This document shows positions 17,124 through 33,910 of a stretch of DNA of 64,000 bases, one piece after another. This DNA is from Thioclava sp. GXIMD2076 (GTDB lineage Bacteria; Pseudomonadota; Alphaproteobacteria; Rhodobacterales; Rhodobacteraceae). The stretch covers positions 2,469,001 to 2,533,000 of the forward strand of contig NZ_CP149932.1 in NCBI RefSeq assembly GCF_037949795.1, given 5' to 3'. A program made the translations under genes and the position numbers. Under the pieces are notes generated by a model, which saw only the letters and a list, made by a program, of their open reading frames with translations, did no database searches and was not told the origin of the DNA. Numbering within the stretch: the first letter of the stretch is position 1; every line of letters begins with the position of its first letter.

Positions 17124-17444
17124 CTACACGCCCCTCATCTTTGCGGCTTCCGTTAGGATCAGCTTGTCGAGTGTCAGATCCGACACGGCGCGCCTGAGCC
17201 GCGTATTCTCTTTCTCGAGTTCCTTCAGTCGCTTGAGCTGATCGCGGTTCATCCCGCCAAACTCACGCCGCCAGCGGTAGTAGGTTTGTTGGTTCGGCAT
17301 GGCCCTCGAACCAGTGGCGGGCACATGCCTCACCGCCAATCTGGCGCACCGCATCCGCCAGATTCGCGCCTTGGCCCTGGCACAGACCTCAACCTGACGC
17401 AGCTTCATGACAATATCTTCCGGCTTTTCGCGTTTGCCTGCCAT
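17124..17444 (-). pseudogene. IS3-family transposase orfA with hairpin insert
   Basis: The start (KREKPEDIVMKLRQVEV) and end (TYYRWRREFGG, then RDQLKRLKELEKENTRLRRA) are standard for this IS3 OrfA type. In between, one frameshift and an extra segment of about 38 bases with a palindrome (17296-17329) replace the expected helix-turn-helix residues. The frame stays open but the DNA-binding part is scrambled. Confidence 0.7.
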
Positions 17445-17506
17445 CGAAGTACTCCTCCATCATACGGGATAAGTTATCCCAAAAGGTGGACCACTTCAGT
17501 GGGGCA

Positions 17507-17716
17507 AGACCAGAGATCGGGGCCGAGGATTACGACCTTCACGGTCTGCGCTATACGGCTTGCGCCGAACTCGGGGCGCTCGGCCTTGACGATGATATGA
17601 TCATGGCCGTTTCGGGCCATACGACCAAAGCGATGGTCGCAAAATACGCAGGCCCTGCCCGGCAGAAAGCGCGCGCCAAAATCGCGCAATCCATGCGGGA
17701 CAAGAGCGATATTTGA
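17507..17716 (+). pseudogene. Tyrosine recombinase/integrase, C-terminal remnant
   Basis: The frame starts at the IS boundary and encodes DLHGLRYTACAELGALG and MAVSGHTTKAMVAKYAGPAR. These are the HxLR, GH and catalytic Tyr blocks of phage-type integrases. Everything upstream, including the first catalytic Arg, is lost to the IS. It lies 110 bases from a tRNA-Leu fragment, as expected for an integrase next to its attachment site. Confidence 0.8.
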
Positions 17717-19850: not shown

Positions 19851-20144
19851 GGGCTCAAAATGGTCGGGGCCGGTGACTTCTGCTCACCAGGCCCGATTGC
19901 CGCATCGACGATAAGACGTATATTTCCGAAATTTTACTGCCGCGCATCGACGTATCCGGCCCTTAGCGAACTTTCCTGCCTGCCGCAACGAATGACCGCT
20001 TCCAAGGCAAAGCAGACGATCAAAACGTAGGGCAGGTCCCAAAGAGGGACAGATCGAACAACACACACCGGCACCCCCCGGTTGCCAAATACACACATCA
20101 TTTGGTATCGGTAGAGCAGCCTAACCCAGCATACGGCGGTATCG
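19851..20144. other. Intergenic stretch before the nuclease cassette
   Basis: About 290 bases with no convincing gene. The G+C content falls toward the right, which marks the start of a laterally acquired segment. The promoter of the nuclease cassette should lie here. Confidence 0.4.
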
Positions 20145-21515
20145 TTGCTTATTCGTCCTCGTCTGACAGATTATCATGGGATTCACGCCGCACAGGCTGA
20201 TCTCGACTTTGCTATTCCGTTTCTTGACGAGGACATTCCCCTCTACCTTGACCCCTTCATGCTCTGGCGGTCGCCCTCTCAGCAGGATCATGGGCTACAC
20301 ATAGGCCTAATCAACGCCTTCAATCACCTTGGAGTTCTTGCCGCGCAAGGCAAAGAAGCGCAGGCAATCGAGACTTTGATTATCGCCTCCGAGTGCGACG
20401 AAGTCGGCTTGGGCACGTCCCTTACCCGAAAGGGAAAGCGGATTGGGGCAAGTAAGGCTCGCGAGATAATTGACCTATTCAAAGTGATTCCGCGCTATCA
20501 GCAGAGCGGCTTCAGACACTTCGAGGAGATTCAGTTCTTCATTGAAGGAATATCAAAGGACCGCATTTCTGATATTGGCTGCAACTTCCTGAAGTCGTTC
20601 TTGATCGACTTCACGATTGAGCAATGCCACAAGCTCGGCATTCCAACTCATGATTGCACTGTCGAGCATATTTACGATGCTCGCTCAGGCATGTTTAAAC
20701 GTGAACTTGGCGTTCCATTACCTGTGAACCCTGAAAAAGGCTCACCGATTATCTTCGTGCCAAAGCGATGGCTCCGGTTTGCCCCGTGGATTAGTTACGA
20801 CGATTACTTTGAAAAGCACTGCCCGCAGGACGAGATTTCGCACAAGCCAGAGGAACTGACGCGAGTTAAGGTTCTAGGCTTTAACCGGCAAAACTACGGC
20901 GTCATTGATCAATATATCCAGTTAAAGGAACGCACGGCAGACGATTGTGCGAGCGATCCGCTATTCTCGCAAATCCCCGTCACTTCGGCAAAGCGGGTCT
21001 TTGCTGAGATAAAGAAGCTGCCGACAGGGAAAACTAACGGCGCAGATGTGAAGTATGAGCAGTTGGTCGGAAGGTTGTTGCCCTCGCTGTTCTATCCGCA
21101 CCTTGACTTTGCAAAGGAGCAGGCGCGCACGGATGACGGCGTTTCCATCCGCGACTTGATCTTCTACAACACCCGCTCGACGCCCCTCCTGCAAGAGTTA
21201 ATGGACGACTACGGGTCGCGGCAAATCACCTTCGAGATGAAAAACGTGGCGGCGATTGAGCGAACCCACATCGACCAGATCAACCGCTACTTGACAGACG
21301 AGCTTGGCAAGTTCGGGGTGTTTGTGACCCGAAAGCCGCTCAAGCGTGCTGAGTTTCAGCGCACGATCAATCTATGGGGTGGTCAGCGAAAGGCCGCTAT
21401 CACACTCACCGATGCGGACTTAGAGCAGATGGTCGAGGTCTTTGACAGTAAACAACGCGCGCCGCTTGACATTTTGAACAAAAAATACGTCGAGTTTCGG
21501 CGAGCTTGCCCATAG
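20145..21515 (+). CDS. PD-(D/E)xK nuclease-like protein of unknown family, possible defence protein
   Basis: A 456-residue protein not recognised as a named family. Residues about 300-425 look like a PD-(D/E)xK nuclease fold: Tyr-Glu at 304-305 in a leading helix, Asp337 in SIRDLIFYN, and Glu364-x-Lys366 in QITFEMKN, followed by a helix with an HIDQINRYL pattern. The first 170 residues form a separate mixed domain (LDEDIPLYLDPFMLW). The start is a TTG because no ATG or GTG lies between the upstream in-frame stop and it. Eight bases after the stop a second gene begins, then a third overlaps it by one base, so the three form an operon. G+C is lower than in flanking genes, which suggests transfer. 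A role in defence is inference. Confidence 0.75.
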   Translation: MLIRPRLTDYHGIHAAQADLDFAIPFLDEDIPLYLDPFMLWRSPSQQDHGLHIGLINAFNHLGVLAAQGKEAQAIETLIIASECDEVGLGTSLTRKGKRIGASKAREIIDLFKVIPRYQQSGFRHFEEIQFFIEGISKDRISDIGCNFLKSFLIDFTIEQCHKLGIPTHDCTVEHIYDARSGMFKRELGVPLPVNPEKGSPIIFVPKRWLRFAPWISYDDYFEKHCPQDEISHKPEELTRVKVLGFNRQNYGVIDQYIQLKERTADDCASDPLFSQIPVTSAKRVFAEIKKLPTGKTNGADVKYEQLVGRLLPSLFYPHLDFAKEQARTDDGVSIRDLIFYNTRSTPLLQELMDDYGSRQITFEMKNVAAIERTHIDQINRYLTDELGKFGVFVTRKPLKRAEFQRTINLWGGQRKAAITLTDADLEQMVEVFDSKQRAPLDILNKKYVEFRRACP

Positions 21516-21523
21516 GAGAGATC

Positions 21524-21907
21524 ATGGACAGCAAAGAAGATGTAGAGCGGCTGGAAAAGCTAGTTGGTCAATTGCAAGGCCTATATGCGGAAATCGGCAC
21601 GCTCGCCAAGAAGAGCCCGAATGATGCGGTGAATACATTCAAGCTCAAGTTTATCAATCGCGTCCTAGCGATGGGAAACGAAGTGCTTGGCCAGAAATAC
21701 AAACCATTTGAGGAGTTCGATCAATTCGAGCCTGACGACGCGCCTTCTACGAGTGACGTTACGATGGTCATTTCTCAGTATATGGAAGAAGCGGAGAGGT
21801 TTCGCTCCGACAATGTTCGGTTCGCGAATGGTGTGTGGAAGTATGTTGTGAATGGGGTGCCGAGCGAGATTCGATCTGGCCCACCGACAAAGATCGGGAG
21901 AAAATAA
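21524..21907 (+). CDS. Small acidic helical protein, first of a paralogous pair
   Basis: A 127-residue, mostly helical protein of unknown function. The ATG has AGGAGAG at good spacing. Residues about 10-95 (LEKLVGQLQGLYAEIGTLAK, then KLKFINRVLAMGNEVLG) align with the next gene's product (FSSLLNEVKELSKKKPD, then KVKIVNRVLENLLVVLEG), so the two arose by duplication. The stop codon overlaps the next start as TAATG, which suggests coupled translation and perhaps a hetero-oligomer. It follows the nuclease-like gene by 8 bases. Confidence 0.7.
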   Translation: MDSKEDVERLEKLVGQLQGLYAEIGTLAKKSPNDAVNTFKLKFINRVLAMGNEVLGQKYKPFEEFDQFEPDDAPSTSDVTMVISQYMEEAERFRSDNVRFANGVWKYVVNGVPSEIRSGPPTKIGRK

Positions 21908-22344
21908 TGGCATTTGAAGACGACTACTATTTCTCCTATATCACGACAGATGCCAAAGTCGCTGAGTATGAAGCAAGCCACGATGTGTTCTCGTCCTTGC
22001 TCAACGAAGTGAAAGAGCTTTCAAAGAAAAAGCCCGACGCTTCTATGAGTGCAGGCAAAGTCAAGATCGTGAACCGCGTTCTTGAAAACCTGTTGGTCGT
22101 GCTCGAAGGTCAACCCGACGCAAAATATCTTGAGGCTCTAGACGACGACGACTTGCCGCAGGTCAGCGATGCCGTTCTTGTCATGGTTCAATTTAAGTCG
22201 GCCCTCGCCTCATTCAAGGAAAGGCACTATCGGAGCGTCTCGCGGATGGGCTACCAATGGATAACCGAAGAACTGATTGATCAACTCAAGGCCGATTACG
22301 CAGAAGACCTTGATGATGCTGAGGAAGAAGACGAGACATCATAG
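21907..22344 (+). CDS. Small acidic helical protein, second of a paralogous pair
   Basis: A 145-residue protein of unknown function, paralogous to the preceding product, with a strongly acidic C-terminus (EDLDDAEEEDETS). Such a tail is typical of proteins that mask a basic or DNA-binding partner, so regulation or inhibition of the nuclease-like protein is one possibility (inference). Start: ATG overlapping the upstream TAA, with GGGAGA before it. It ends about 85 bases before an inserted IS1182-type element, so a fourth gene may have been separated or lost. Confidence 0.7.
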   Translation: MAFEDDYYFSYITTDAKVAEYEASHDVFSSLLNEVKELSKKKPDASMSAGKVKIVNRVLENLLVVLEGQPDAKYLEALDDDDLPQVSDAVLVMVQFKSALASFKERHYRSVSRMGYQWITEELIDQLKADYAEDLDDAEEEDETS

Positions 22345-22430
22345 GACGTCAGCGAAGGCGAACGGGCCTTGCACCCCCTTCAAGTATGCGCCAACACGAC
22401 CACTTTTGTAAGTCTGCTTGCATCGGATAT

Positions 22431-23936
22431 TGTTGAAAAAGTCCGTTGCTTGACGCCCGAGGCTTTGATTCACTCGTTCTGAGAGTGGAGGGCATTGCAA
22501 TGATGGGGCCAAGGCAAGTTGCGCAGGGCGCTTTGTTTTACGATTTCTCTATTGAGAGTTTCGTGCCGTTGGATCACCCGGTGCGGGGTATCGACCGGTT
22601 CCTCGACCTTTCGGATGTACGGCCAATGCTGGCACCGTTCTACAGTTCTGGCGGGCGCCCCTCGATCGATCCCGAGCTGATGATCCGCATGCTTCTGCTG
22701 GGCTATTGCATGGGCATTCAGTCCGAGCGGCGGCTTTGCGACGAGGTTCATGTTAATCTGGCATATCGTTGGTTTTGCCGGCTCGATCTGACCGACGCGG
22801 TGCCGGATCATTCGACATTTTCCAAGAACCGGCACGGGCGTTTCCGTGAGAGCGGGCTGTTCCGGCATCTGTTCGAGACCGTTCTGCAACGATGCATCAA
22901 TGAAGGTTTGGTCGGCGGTCACAGCTTCGGCGTCGATGCCAGCTTGATCCCGGCGAATGCCAATCAGACGCGAGGCGTCGACAGCAAGGAAGGCCTGTCG
23001 CCAGACCTGCTGTCTCGAGCCGTGAACGAATATATTGAAACACTCGACGATGCAGCTTTCGGCGCCGCAACCGCAGTCGTTCCCAAGTACATCTCGCCAG
23101 TAGACCCGGCTGCCCGCTGGACGGGAGCCGACGGCGGTGCCGCATACTTCGCTTATTCTACCAATTATCTGGTGGACTTGGATAATGCTGTGATCGTCGA
23201 TGTCGAGCCAACAGCTCCGATACGGCCAGCGGAGGCGCGCGCCGCACGGGACATGATCGACCGCGTTCAGCAACGCTTTGGCATCAAACCCGGAAAGTTG
23301 GTCGGCGATACAGGCTACGGATCGGCCGAAATGTTGGGCTGGCTGGTGGAGGAGCGCAAGATTGCCCCTCACATCCCCGTCTGGGACAAATCGAAACGCA
23401 CCGACGGCACCTTCTCGCGGGACGACTTTGTCTACGATACGCCCACCGATCGGTATACGTGCCCTGCCGGAAATACGCTCGAGACGTCCCGCCGGAAATT
23501 CTCTACGCCGCGCACCACGAATGTCAGCAAGGACGGATTGATCCGCTACCGCGCGCGCAAGCAGGATTGCGACATTTGCCCGTTAAAAGCGCAATGCTGT
23601 CCGACCCAACCCGCCCGAAAAGTGCTCCGCTCGGTTCACGAAGCGGCCCGAGACATCGCTCGCGAAATTCGCAAAACCGACGCCTACATGACCTCGTTCA
23701 TGCAAAGGCGAAAGGTCGAGATGCTCTTTGCCCATCTGAAGCGTTACATCGGCCTGCGCATGATGCGTCTGCGCGGACCCAAGGGTGCAACCGAGCAATT
23801 CCAACTCGCCGCAACCGCCCAGAACCTCCGCAAACTGGCCAAGTTGGTGCCCGGGCCAGCCCCCGCATGAGCGGAGCCGGCAATCCGATCTTTTAGGATC
23901 GTACGCAAAACGCTTCGAACGTCGACTTTATCAACA
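22431..23936 (+). mobile_element. IS1182-type insertion sequence
   Basis: The ends TGTTGAAAAAGTC (left) and GACTTTATCAACA (right, inverted) match at 12 of 13 positions. Both are flanked by ATAT, a likely 4-bp target duplication. The single transposase gene is intact, so the insertion is complete and probably recent. Confidence 0.85.
22500..23870 (+). CDS. IS1182-family transposase
   Basis: A 456-residue DDE transposase. The N-terminal part (FIESFVPLDHPVRGIDRF-like region, then GGRPSIDPELMIRMLLLGY) is the DUF772-type domain, and the C-terminal RRKVEMLFAHLKRYIGLRMM contains the catalytic Glu region. A Cys-rich segment (CDICPLKAQCCP) lies near residue 375, as usual for the family. The ATG has GGAGGG upstream. 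The reading frame is full length, so mobility is plausible. It catalyses cut-and-paste movement of the element that carries it. Confidence 0.92.
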   Translation: MMGPRQVAQGALFYDFSIESFVPLDHPVRGIDRFLDLSDVRPMLAPFYSSGGRPSIDPELMIRMLLLGYCMGIQSERRLCDEVHVNLAYRWFCRLDLTDAVPDHSTFSKNRHGRFRESGLFRHLFETVLQRCINEGLVGGHSFGVDASLIPANANQTRGVDSKEGLSPDLLSRAVNEYIETLDDAAFGAATAVVPKYISPVDPAARWTGADGGAAYFAYSTNYLVDLDNAVIVDVEPTAPIRPAEARAARDMIDRVQQRFGIKPGKLVGDTGYGSAEMLGWLVEERKIAPHIPVWDKSKRTDGTFSRDDFVYDTPTDRYTCPAGNTLETSRRKFSTPRTTNVSKDGLIRYRARKQDCDICPLKAQCCPTQPARKVLRSVHEAARDIAREIRKTDAYMTSFMQRRKVEMLFAHLKRYIGLRMMRLRGPKGATEQFQLAATAQNLRKLAKLVPGPAPA

Positions 23937-24057
23937 ATATCATCGCATAGCTGCCGTTCGTTCAGACAGCAGTGAACTTCCGCTATCCGCCCTTTCTTCG
24001 GCCTTGGGCGTCTGCGCATTTTGCACGAATATCTCAATCGGGCGGGGCACAGCTAGT

Positions 24058-29060: not shown

Positions 29061-29721
29061 TTCCTAAATCGAGCGGTCTTCCTGCTAAAAATATTTTTGT
29101 CACAAGAAATCGATCTTCATCCCATGCGCCTGCGTTGTTTGCTCAACAGAGCAGTCCTACAGCGGTATATTGGCACATGTTTTGGATTACAGTTTTATTA
29201 ACGCGCTAGGGCAAAGGCCTTTCCTGTGGAAAAAGGGCGGATTGCCGCCATTCGTCGCACCGCCGACGAATGGCAGAAAAGCGCAGAAGCGGCCCATCGA
29301 CTCAGCATTTGCGGCAGACCCGAGAACCGTCCGTCGGTTCACCGCGCCGAGTTCCACTTGATCCAAAAGCCTCTCGCTAGTTTTCAGAATGTCAGAAGCA
29401 CTTCGCATCTAGATCCGATGGCAGATCAATCGGTTGCAGCACGCGCAACTGCAGAAGCTTAACAGTCTGGCCCTCTGCCGGACGGCGGCTATTCACCCTT
29501 GTAATATTCCAGGGCAAACAGCCTTTTTGAGTCAGCGAAGTCTCGCGACCTCTGGAGGACATAATATGCCAACCCCTTCCCGAACCGATGCTCTGCCCTG
29601 ATGCGTGCCGAATTGGAAAATCGAAGGGTGATCCAATTCGGCATTCAATGGCACTACGTTGCGTTATCGGAAGTGTGAAAAATCGACAAAAGGATATCTC
29701 GCAGTAGGCGATATTGACGCA
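29061..29721. other. Intergenic stretch with an 11-bp inverted repeat
   Basis: About 660 bases with no convincing coding region. It contains the perfect repeat GCCATTCGTCG / CGACGAATGGC at 29247-29274 with a 6-base loop and no T tract. It separates core-like genes from the low-GC phosphoesterase-NTPase gene and may be a boundary of the acquired segment. Confidence 0.45.
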
Positions 29722-32700
29722 TCAATCATCCTTCTCCGTCAATGCGACCGCTGCGCGCACCCCCTTGAGGATGGAGCCTTTCGCACTTTTGGGAGCACCT
29801 AGTATTCGCTTTATCTCATATGTCACTTCTTCGATTCCTTTACGCAAGGGAACTGCTGCTGTCTTAGATGTAGAGAATGCGAGTAGCTTCTCCGCCATAA
29901 TATCCAAAAAGACCCTGTCTTTTGCGTTGTCGTCGATCATAATCTTCCAGCGATGCACCCAATTCGGATCACTAGAATCCAGTTGAGCACAGGCAGAAAA
30001 TATTCGTTCAGTAAGCGATGTCGTAGAATCTTTCGAGATTCCATCAAAGATATCACAGAGCTTCGCTGTCGCGATATTGTCACCCACATCCGAGCACATA
30101 AACGAGAATAGCTTCAACTTGAAAGAGTAGACTATCATCGCTCGGTCATCTTTGGACAACGGGCGATCACTCTCACTCATACGCTTTAAAAAGTTGGCGA
30201 GAACATCGCCAGCCAACTGGAGTAGAAATAGAGAAAACTTCGCGCTCCCCTTAAAGTAATCCTCTGTGGCGATGATTTTATAGCTCGCGTCAGTATAATC
30301 TGAGTTACGCAAGACCCGCCCTAGGAGAATCAGCGTCGCTCTATACTCCGGCATCGACAAGCTTGTGGCGATGTCCTTGTTTTCTGGATCGGCCGTCGCC
30401 CCATAATCCGCACTGTCTACTGGCTTGCCTTCATCATCTTCCATCTTGGAGCCAGAGGGGGGGCGTCGCTTATTCTCTGACAATCTAGCCTCAGCCTCAT
30501 CGACAATATCATCCATTTCCTCACGCGAAAGATTCTTGTTTAGAATCCTATTCAACTTGGCTTTTGTGGCATGTACCGCATCGCTCTGATCTGCGATCTC
30601 TATTAAGTTTGATAAGTCCACATGGCGTAAATCTTCGGGGCAACCACTCTTAATCTTATCGCACAGGATCTCAACTATGCTGTCGTTTTCTCGAGAAAGC
30701 CCAGAGTGAATTTCGATCTCACGCGAATAGCGGAGGAAGTCGGCGGAATTAAGTATGCCCGTAAGTCTTGCGTGCGAAGCACCAATGTGCTTCGCAGCAT
30801 AATACTCTTCGAAGCATTGATATTTAAAACATATGTAATCTTCCGTTCGGCTTAGAATGCCACATGCAACCAGAGTTTGAATTGCTTCAGACGCGTCAGT
30901 ATTAAGGGCTTTGGTCCTGAAGAAATCAATTAAATGAGTCAAAAGTTGATTTGGCGTCGCCTGCCCGCCGTTATCTTTCATAAACATCGCAACAGAGCTG
31001 AGTACAATTTCCTTGCCAATGACATCCATACCTTCACGAAGAATGTTTGAGAAGTCCGCTTTGCCGAGCAGATAATCGGCCATATTCATGATAAGGACAG
31101 ATTCATTAATCCGTTCCAGCCTACGCTCCGCATGCATTGCCCAAAGCAGAAGAGTCACAATATAACCCGTCTTGGGTAGATCACTGGTACGAATCTGCTC
31201 CATTAGTAGCTCATAGGTCGTGTCACGGTCAGAGCCCGTGATATCACACCACCTATGTGTCAGCTCACGGATCAGGCGCCTCTTCAGTGGCTTTATCTTA
31301 ATGAAATCAAAATTATCTATGTAATCTGAATTCGGACTCTTCGGGTTCATACTGGCAAGCCTCTCTGTGGAAAAGAGAAGCCAGCGGATGTTCGGATAGT
31401 TCTCGATACATTTGATAATCTCTCTCTTGCTACTTAAATTTTCTCCAGAGAAGTTATCGATTAGGAGCGTCAGTTCACCCGATGCCAAACTCTTTTCCAG
31501 GTCAAACCCTGACTTTGATACTGGTAAGTAATTGGAGACTGCTCTGCCTAGCTCGTAGATAGACCCCTTGAAGATCTTGGAGCTGACGATAACAGGAACA
31601 ACCGGCTTGCCTGAGGCGCCCTCGGCTAGCAAGACTGAACAATAGTGGGCAAGGCTCGTCTTTCCAATCTCTCGATCCCCAGTAAAAATTAGATTCCGGC
31701 CACTTCGGAGCAAAGCGGAGAGATTAGCCTCATCGCCTGGTTTTCCAGCTTCAACAAAAGCGCAATCTTCATTCTCCGCAGTTTCTTCCAGTGCTCCTGA
31801 AGAACTAAAAACGCCGGAGCTATGGAATAAAGGCGGGACAATGTAAGCGCTATGTGGGTCGCTCCGGTGAATCGCCGAAAGATCCGAAATATTGAACTGC
31901 TCTAGGGCTTTTTGCCGGATAACTGGGCGGCAATCTCTTAAATATTTCTCAAGCTCGACGTTTAGCTCTTTTTTTTTAGGTTGATATGAGAAGCGCGCTA
32001 CTCCTCCCTCAGCGACATTCTCTCCTGCCCCAAACCGTCGCGCACCATCAAAATATGTTCGAATCTGAAGCTCCACCTCACCCGTATCACTGTCAACAGT
32101 TACGACGTGATAACTATTAAGGTGCTTCCTTTCAGCGAAGATCGAACCCGCTTGGAGAAATACAGATTTTCCTGAGATTGTCTGCCTTGCTTCGGGTCTT
32201 ACACCGTGCAAGTGCCCGAAAGCCATAATGTCGTAATTCTGACTGAGCCGTTGCTCAACCGACAGCTCATCAAAGTCACAAAGCCAACTCAGCGGGTGAT
32301 GAAACAGCGCTATCCTTACATCTGCGTCAGGCAGAGAGGATATTGCGTCGTCCGCATTTCGCTCGCCAAGGAGGAGTTTGCCGTTGTCAATGTTACCCGA
32401 TTCCCCACTACTTCTCCAAGAATTGTTGAAGCTAGTTATTAAGACCTGCATGCCGTTCAGATTCAAAACGTAGGATCTATGTAATGCATGCGAAACACTT
32501 GGGGTCGCAGATTTAACTGATTGATACTTGGTGAAGTTCGAACATCTATCAAGCGCGAGCAGTGCATTAGGCTCTTCATTCCTCGCGTCATCAATGAAAC
32601 GATTAACCTCTTCCGTGGAATTCAATGTTACCTTCAGACCGTTCTCAAGAATCTTATTCTTTCTAACGCTGGATCTCGATATGTCATGATTTCCCGCGCA

Positions 32701-32961
32701 TATGAAATACCGCTCCTTGTCCAGGTTCGTGAATTTAATGATGCTCTCGACAAATTCAGCGTGAGCAAGATCGAAGTCTTCAGACTTCTCTCCAGCTTGC
32801 ACCAAATCACCCGTACAAACTACAAAATCAATGGACACCCCCTTGTCGTCCATCAAGGAACCTAGATCATTCAATAGCGCATCACGGACGATAGAAATGT
32901 CATTCCGCTTCGCCTCCGACCAGTGCACATCCGAAAAGTGCAGGAATGAGAATTTAGCCAT
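29722..32961 (-). CDS. Calcineurin-like phosphoesterase fused to STAND/NACHT-like NTPase, probable antiphage protein
   Basis: A 1079-residue three-part protein. Residues 1-300 are a metallophosphoesterase with every motif intact: FSDVHW (Asp11, His13), GD at 51-52, GNHD at 90-93, FHHP and GHLH at 249-252. Residues about 400-720 are a P-loop NTPase with GDREIGKTS at 428-436, Walker B LTLLIDNFSG, and LLFSTER, which fit STAND/NACHT-like switches. The remaining 350 helical residues would be the sensor. In STAND defence proteins, binding of a phage molecule triggers oligomerisation and activates the N-terminal effector (family knowledge). The ATG at 32961 follows a TTG that is one codon longer. 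G+C is well below the genome, which suggests transfer. Defence is inferred. Confidence 0.8.
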   Translation of the reverse strand: MAKFSFLHFSDVHWSEAKRNDISIVRDALLNDLGSLMDDKGVSIDFVVCTGDLVQAGEKSEDFDLAHAEFVESIIKFTNLDKERYFICAGNHDISRSSVRKNKILENGLKVTLNSTEEVNRFIDDARNEEPNALLALDRCSNFTKYQSVKSATPSVSHALHRSYVLNLNGMQVLITSFNNSWRSSGESGNIDNGKLLLGERNADDAISSLPDADVRIALFHHPLSWLCDFDELSVEQRLSQNYDIMAFGHLHGVRPEARQTISGKSVFLQAGSIFAERKHLNSYHVVTVDSDTGEVELQIRTYFDGARRFGAGENVAEGGVARFSYQPKKKELNVELEKYLRDCRPVIRQKALEQFNISDLSAIHRSDPHSAYIVPPLFHSSGVFSSSGALEETAENEDCAFVEAGKPGDEANLSALLRSGRNLIFTGDREIGKTSLAHYCSVLLAEGASGKPVVPVIVSSKIFKGSIYELGRAVSNYLPVSKSGFDLEKSLASGELTLLIDNFSGENLSSKREIIKCIENYPNIRWLLFSTERLASMNPKSPNSDYIDNFDFIKIKPLKRRLIRELTHRWCDITGSDRDTTYELLMEQIRTSDLPKTGYIVTLLLWAMHAERRLERINESVLIMNMADYLLGKADFSNILREGMDVIGKEIVLSSVAMFMKDNGGQATPNQLLTHLIDFFRTKALNTDASEAIQTLVACGILSRTEDYICFKYQCFEEYYAAKHIGASHARLTGILNSADFLRYSREIEIHSGLSRENDSIVEILCDKIKSGCPEDLRHVDLSNLIEIADQSDAVHATKAKLNRILNKNLSREEMDDIVDEAEARLSENKRRPPSGSKMEDDEGKPVDSADYGATADPENKDIATSLSMPEYRATLILLGRVLRNSDYTDASYKIIATEDYFKGSAKFSLFLLQLAGDVLANFLKRMSESDRPLSKDDRAMIVYSFKLKLFSFMCSDVGDNIATAKLCDIFDGISKDSTTSLTERIFSACAQLDSSDPNWVHRWKIMIDDNAKDRVFLDIMAEKLLAFSTSKTAAVPLRKGIEEVTYEIKRILGAPKSAKGSILKGVRAAVALTEKDD

Positions 32962-33910
32962 CAAACGCCCCAGTGTGTCATCATGTCAAAACCTTGTGAA
33001 CTCGCAAAAGATATCGCTGGCTATTCAAGCCATGCATATTACCGAAAAAGCTTTTAGCATCTAATGCGTGATTCCTTCCGAATGTTATATGTCTGGCATC
33101 ACCGCGGGGAATGGTAGAGCTTTCTTAACGTTTTCTCCATAAACTATCCGAGTTTTCGACATATCCTTCCAAACACACAACACTAAATCGTCGAAGAAAC
33201 ACCGTAGCCCCTGGATTCGCTACGAATCTAATTGAAGGGAAAGTCGAACTGGGGCCGCAACCGAAAGAGAATACCAATTTCCTTAACTTATAGGGCAAAC
33301 ATGGAAAGAGAGTTAACCTTGTTAGATGCTTTATCGCAACAGTTGCAGCGTTACGGGGTATTCGGTTTCACAGGAGAGAGTTTCACCAGATGTAGTGAGA
33401 CGTATCGCGTGACATCAGAGATCAATGGTGACGAACGAAACCATGACCAAGGACGCGCTCGGTTTGGTCAGATCAAGGATCGAACGAACGTCTAAGCGAT
33501 GTTGTGCTTGCCGTCACGACCCTGCCACGGCATCAAGAAACCTGAGCGGATGAGAGCGGGCGTTCCTTCGAACCATTTATAGTAGTAGTCTCATAGTGCG
33601 CATCAACTACCGCTAGCTACCATTTCCCGTCGCTGGTAGCTAGCACAACTGCAGCTAGGACTTCTGGGCAGCTATTCGCCCGACCTAGCGCTGAAAACAA
33701 GCGAACATTCTTTCATTTTTTTCACTTGTTCGTCGACCTGCGGGGCCGGCAGTTATGAGGTGCGAGCGACCATCTGCGGAGCTTTATCCGAAGGTCGGCT
33801 ATGGGCCGAACGCGTCGATAGGTTGGCGCGGCCCTCGTGATGGGGCCGCCGCGCCGCTGCATGATCGGTTTGAGCCCATCGCCGTCAGTGATTGTCCTGC
33901 CGAGTTCAGG
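32962..33910. other. Long intergenic stretch between two accessory genes
   Basis: About 950 bases without a supported gene. The left part is AT-rich, like the phosphoesterase gene, and should hold its promoter. From about 33700 the composition returns to genome-like GC. A short run of GCTAGCTACC / GGTAGCTAGC at 33612-33645 is a near-perfect inverted repeat. A weak 87-codon frame at 33232-33495 is not convincing. Confidence 0.45.

Follow-up and report, generated by a model that had tools for sequence, protein, structure and literature searches.

What might a compact set of three genes, lying against an insertion sequence (IS) in the genome of Thioclava sp. GXIMD2076, be doing there? The set, here called A-B1-B2, occupies positions 20145 to 22344, on the forward strand, of a window that comprises the whole 64,000-nucleotide stretch analysed (positions 2,469,001 to 2,533,000 of NZ_CP149932.1, assembly GCF_037949795.1). 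A preliminary description of this DNA recognised none of the three genes as a named system. The set is nonetheless already listed in PADLOC-DB as the candidate PDC-M36. In version 2 of that database, A matches PDC-M36A models over its whole length (expectation values (E) of 1.7e-226 and 1.2e-137), and both B1 (E 1.1e-48) and B2 (E 3.6e-39) match PDC-M36B. Judged by these models, the membership of A-B1-B2 in this catalogued, uncharacterised candidate defence system is well supported; we add herein the division of B into an old pair of paralogues, a FokI-like assignment for A and the swapping of its modules.

According to PMC11811056, PDC systems are unpublished candidate systems credited to Payne et al. 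2021; Payne is also first author of a later preprint (bioRxiv 10.1101/2024.01.29.577857), which is cited in PMC12137116. Literature searches found no text describing PDC-M36, and the accessible part of PMC13092281 mentions neither FokI nor PDC. Neither NCBIfam nor Pfam gave an above-threshold match for the cassette proteins, and in PHROGs, A matches three families (best E 6.6e-25), none of known function. The label PF28123.1 is attached to homologues of A, 120 among the matches listed; a Pfam scan of A gave no such match. DUF1499 for B2 (Pfam E 0.058, below the cut-off) and a phage endolysin for B1 (E 0.23) were considered and rejected.

The predicted nuclease domain and the modules of A

Gene A (20145..21515) begins with TTG and encodes 456 residues, made up of a conserved N-terminal module (about residues 1-270) and a C-terminal FokI-like PD-(D/E)xK domain (about 278-456). 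A protein of this length with a nuclease-like pattern at D337, E364 and K366 had been described beforehand, and the residues do lie at these positions. The codon of D337, a candidate metal ligand, is found at 21153..21155, and the codons of E364-M-K366-N367, which form an ExK(N) motif, at 21234..21245. D337, E364, K366 and N367 are invariant in all 72 aligned sequences and in all 11 divergent proteins chosen for comparison, including an ATPase fusion. The nuclease core was modelled with confidence (predicted local distance difference test (pLDDT), 91), and its structural matches are of the FokI, BspD6I, MspJI and EcoT38I type, with the comparison covering mostly residues 273-452. The PD-(D/E)xK core claimed in the preliminary description, which a predicted fold of another kind would have contradicted, is therefore borne out by the model, the structural matches and the invariant residues.

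Sequence comparison was less informative. When solved structures were searched by sequence, the best match of A alone had an E of 0.8, and a profile of A gave no match at E up to 10. The FokI cleavage domain family, PF09254, had no match in 398 genomes of the phylum or in 14 controls; since nothing matched anywhere, controls included, this search proves nothing. At its extreme end (21507-21512), A terminates in Cys-Pro, which is kept in at least 90% of the 72 aligned sequences, with one further residue following in many loci.

One hidden Markov model (HMM) was made for residues 1-270 of A, the N-terminal part, and another for residues 275-456, the nuclease part. Both modules occur in one protein at two loci, L075 and L076, with no B gene within about 1.5 kb on each side, and at L074 they form two open reading frames (ORFs) in the same frame with a stop in between. 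On a Klebsiella plasmid (CP109716.1; L096:1055-3124), the nuclease part closes a protein of 689 residues, the start of which resembles AAA/ORC/STAND ATPases in sub-threshold Pfam matches. On a Calothrix plasmid (L097:2486-4573), the N-terminal module opens a 695-residue protein that has a different C-terminal part and in which the nuclease HMM found nothing, and a Bacillus plasmid (L095) has the N-terminal part by itself. That the parts occur separately or recombined on these three plasmids argues for a protein built of sensor-like and effector-like modules. A matched 88 plasmid records (66 from Klebsiella, 8 from Citrobacter and 4 from Enterobacter), among which only the gene of L096 was examined, and two Klebsiella phage records as well. 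The ATPase-nuclease fusion of L096 may represent an undescribed immune effector of phage-plasmids.

The paired small proteins and the spread of the unit

B1 (21524..21907; 127 residues, ATG start) follows the stop codon of A after 8 bases, and B2 (21907..22344; 145 residues, with an acidic C-terminal tail) overlaps B1 by 1 base in the sequence TAATG, exactly the spacing previously described. The starts of B1 and B2 are ATGs picked by eye to fit the family; longer upstream starts are present in the ORF list. The two proteins are paralogues, 32% identical across 82 residues (E 7e-9, from a single pairwise comparison). The AlphaFold2 model of B1 (pLDDT 94.8) consists of three long helices followed by short strands, and structure searches gave no convincing relative for it.

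When 68 sources were searched with an HMM built up from the two small proteins, 112 B genes came to light. Nine sources were dropped (six with an incomplete A, three with a contig end within 900 nucleotides), leaving 59 loci. Two adjacent B genes are present in 48 of them, the window included; at L005 an insertion lies between the two; a single B is found downstream of A in eight and upstream in two (L057 and L058); and no countable locus is devoid of B. Thus, the small genes accompany A in 59/59 countable records of this close set, and the linkage, which the preliminary description had proposed to survey, is near-obligate. Because the search patterns came from close relatives of A, the set is biased toward the full system. 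As L063-L065 are the same DNA as L011, L015 and L016, the 59 correspond to 56 distinct loci, and the 48 to 45. The insertion at L005 (11362-13319; an Afipia genome) contains ORFs that look transposase-like by eye.

A tree of the B proteins was built by a quick method from 72 of the 112 rows and 136 columns, with many forks left unresolved. All 34 paired B1 proteins, that of the window among them, lie on one side of a branch with a support of 86, while 28 of the 30 paired B2 proteins, together with four single-B rows, lie behind a branch with a support of 82; B2 of the window groups with the others. The paired B2 proteins of L035 and L046 could not be placed, and the two upstream B proteins are long-branched outsiders. 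As for the single-B rows, two from Acidobacteriota stand beside B1, and two from Bacteroidales (one of them, L044, near a contig end) and two from Nitrospirota fall inside B2; the single-B loci L031, L045 and L053 are outside the tree. This topology fits one old duplication that may have given rise to B1 and B2, followed by loss of either copy in the single-B loci. These natural variants allow the roles of the two paralogues to be separated. Acidic residues in the last 20 positions average 5.4 in B2-type proteins (up to 12; n = 30) and 2.2 in B1 (n = 34).

Homologues of A number 2753 at E 1e-3, and loci are found in Pseudomonadota, Bacteroidota, Bacillota, Nitrospirota, Acidobacteriota and others. 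Within the same family, A-like matches occur in 15 of 394 genomes and B in 4, all four of which also carry A at no less than 64% identity; in the other 11, the matches are distant relatives or fragments, and the B profile found nothing. Two of 16 genomes of the genus carry the unit, the present one included. A was located at 120254 in the same-genus genome G402, and L002 is a locus of Thioclava sediminum (NZ_MPZV01000005.1). Copies are also present on plasmids and in seven viral-contig records, some of them cut. The distribution is patchy and mobile, scattered over many phyla. Homologues of the large gene without the small ones in housekeeping contexts had been named as evidence that would speak against a dedicated set: homologues without B do exist, all of them distant (about 23-30% identity) or fragmentary, and no housekeeping context was seen by eye in about 1.5 kb around them.

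At 50.8%, the G+C content of the cassette is below that of the 3 kb to its left (60.0%), the IS (58.2%) and the 3 kb past the IS (56.1%); the mean of the window is 60.0%. The lower G+C reported earlier is thus confirmed, although it is not unique in the window, where a second such region (about 49%) lies at 24-25.5 kb. Another low-G+C stretch (44-48%) extends over 29500-33500. Cassette-like DNA of 84-87% identity recurs in five other loci (L091, L092, L002, L025 and L021; BLASTN), the longest common extent being 19957..22425, and the flanks of these loci are unlike the window save for one 73-base match elsewhere in L025. Such recurrence between non-matching flanks indicates that the cassette is more than a chance assembly.

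The IS (22426..23941, forward strand) abuts this DNA directly downstream; it has 18-nucleotide terminal inverted repeats (22426-22443 and 23924-23941) and a DDE transposase ORF at 22446-23870 (DDE_Tnp_1_6, DUF772). Similarity to L025 breaks off at 22425, and the terminal repeat starts with the very next base, which suggests that the IS inserted at the 3' border of the conserved cassette DNA. In the earlier account the cassette sat between an integrase/att scar and an IS. The IS is where it was said to be, but the scar amounts to a 76-residue C-terminal integrase remnant at 17486-17716 (Phage_integrase E 1.6e-5, below the Pfam cut-off), some 2.4 kb from A, with an AraC-type regulator and a short-chain dehydrogenase (SDR) gene in between, and no direct or att repeat flanking the cassette was found with a minimum of 14 nucleotides. 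A clean empty site was sought: in the genome G399 the neighbouring AraC and SDR genes have counterparts of 80% identity, but the DNA past the SDR gene there is unlike the window, so that the insertion site was not reconstructed. A small ORF at 17127-17444, beside a piece of an IS3-like transposase, matches the DrmC model PDLC02590 (E 1.1e-10); it is probably a transposon gene caught by this model, and DrmC was rejected as a lead.

Upstream of A, the element TTGC...AT.TGGTAT (20082..20108, forward strand) and the TTG start codon are invariant in the 10 upstream regions chosen. TTGCCA and TATCGG stand 18 bases apart in the window, and the element may be promoter-like; a simple sigma-70 scan did not call it. 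By a rough script applied to the 63 of 68 sources in which an RPR-like motif was found, the nearest start before that motif is ATG in 35, TTG in 20, GTG in 3 and none in 5, by which count the TTG start is not general among relatives.

In L002-L060, 525 neighbouring ORFs were called, and the 243 of at least 120 residues within about 2.5 kb were scanned against PADLOC. Among the matches listed (25 of 194; 25 of 342 families) are type IIG, type I and type II restriction-modification proteins, ThsA/ThsB, SIR2, HerA, DruM, RmrA, bSEFIR, AbiEi/AbiEii, PtuA and AbiL-like ATPases, with one to three members per family, mostly not assigned to loci. Examined one by one, specific matches were obtained at L007 (type IIG), L035 (SIR2, which HerA adjoins), L043 (PtuA) and L047 (type I methylase), and less specific ones at L002, L006, L046 and L058. 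At L071, an XhoI endonuclease and a TaqI-like methylase (Pfam) adjoin A, and the neighbours at L072 and L073 look similar by eye. Some relatives thus adjoin known defence genes, as the preliminary description had proposed to check. No fourth gene is widely conserved: no neighbour family occurs in more than five of the 59 loci L002-L060, the commonest being integrase-like by eye, and a conserved cognate methyltransferase was not found there, a type I methylase-like cluster being present in three. In the window, an HTH_VI match (a small helix-turn-helix protein, E 4.3e-4) and the DrmC match were not taken as defence genes.

Three further loci have distinctive surroundings. On a Methylobacterium plasmid (L088:4931-5962) and a Leptolyngbya plasmid (L089:4160-5843), umuDC-type genes immediately precede the unit, umuC being in two pieces in the latter; umuDC linkage as a general rule was dropped. 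At L058:9507-14250, a distant variant carries its only B gene ahead of A, and after A come a CAP12/PCTIR-TIR-like protein (E 0.0052, below the cut-off) and a HEC-05-like protein.

A possible mechanism and its rivals

We consider it probable, though by no means certain, that A-B1-B2 is a self-contained, horizontally mobile module directed against phages or other mobile elements. The N-terminal module of A would recognise a cue, be it a protein, a DNA structure or a DNA modification, and the FokI-like domain would cut DNA, presumably as a dimer like FokI. B1 and B2, as paralogous helical proteins, would bind A, hold its nuclease inactive or in position, and license it once the cue appears. Because specificity would come from the cue, no methylase would be needed. 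A bolder version, possible yet doubtful, is that a portable infection sensor, the N-terminal module of A, and a portable FokI-like effector are swapped among immune proteins, the duplicated B pair acting as a hetero-oligomeric lock that opens on infection. The combinations at hand would then be sensor plus FokI-like part (A), ATPase-like plus FokI-like part (the Klebsiella plasmid), sensor plus another C-terminal part (Calothrix) and sensor alone (Bacillus). If true, this would be a two-key, paralogue-gated nuclease immune system, of which we know no other example.

Several points weigh against a defence module of this kind. Foldseek gave no match for A at E 0.001 (best, 4.2e-3), and Pfam no family at E up to 10. 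No B was seen within 1.5 kb of the distant A-like proteins. Of 20 hand-picked neighbours, only 8 match PADLOC at 1e-10, and for some of these the match lies in a generic ATPase or helicase domain; the scans of neighbours were made without random loci as a background control; and PADLOC revealed no clear defence gene among the nine neighbours in the window itself. The defence role is that of a candidate, and the binding of B to A is putative.

Much of the same evidence can be read in other ways. A and its partners might cut modified or otherwise marked incoming DNA in the manner of type IV restriction, with no methylase of their own and with B1 and B2 as DNA-reading or structural subunits. The restriction-type structural matches of A and the lack of a conserved methylase neighbour would suit such an activity, but Pfam finds no DNA-reading domain in A or B, and B1 has no clear structural relative; we regard this reading as somewhat unlikely. 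Plainly unlikely, in our estimation, is a toxin-antitoxin unit in which A is a DNA-damaging toxin blocked by two antitoxins and which persists mainly by addiction, with any defence as a by-product. The tight operon, the near-obligate pairing and the presence of the unit on plasmids and in predicted viral contigs are all compatible with it, as is the tendency of B2-type proteins to acidic tails, which DNA-mimic inhibitors can have. Such tails are not general among B2, however; a toxin followed by two antitoxins from one old duplication would be an unusual order; and single-B loci retain either a B1-type or a B2-type protein.

A DNA repair or replication accessory set appears very unlikely. It is suggested by the two unrelated plasmids on which the unit comes straight after umuDC-type genes, but umuC- or umuD-like ORFs are present in none of the 68 remaining sources, which include the window and of which 58 hold at least 2 kb of upstream sequence. 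Moreover, the distribution is patchy, some copies are truncated or contain stops, and no neighbour family is widely conserved. Of these readings the defence module is the best supported, with direct cutting of marked DNA and a toxin-antitoxin action as its alternatives.

Comparison with known systems

The cassette differs from classical type II restriction-modification in that no cognate methyltransferase gene is conserved beside it in L002-L060. With the cleavage domain of FokI and BspD6I, A shares the predicted fold of residues 278-456, in which D and ExK lie on the strands expected, and the conserved D...(D/E)xK active site (D337, E364 and K366), the counterparts in FokI being D450, D467 and K469. 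Unlike these enzymes, A has no match to PF09254 and no conserved methylase partner, and its unit has two extra B proteins; no FokI-type recognition domain was seen in the structure comparison, which covered mostly residues 273-452. As A falls into no Pfam family, it is FokI-like in predicted fold only and not a member of the FokI family. SduA of Shedu, which is used in defence, likewise has a PD-(D/E)xK nuclease behind an N-terminal region; no Shedu model was among the PADLOC matches of the cassette at E up to 10. The AVAST-like STAND ATPase nucleases may be approached by the Klebsiella plasmid protein, in which an A-type nuclease domain is C-terminal to an ATPase-like start, whereas A has no ATPase domain by Pfam and carries a different N-terminal module in its place. 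From PDC-M36 (models PDLC04597-PDLC04600), defined by a large protein matching M36A and an adjacent M36B on the same strand, A-B1-B2 shows no difference, and by these models it is a member. For this widespread candidate, of which no description was found, assigning A a FokI-like fold, naming candidate catalytic residues and recognising the duplication of B would replace a bare catalogue entry by a mechanism that can be tested.
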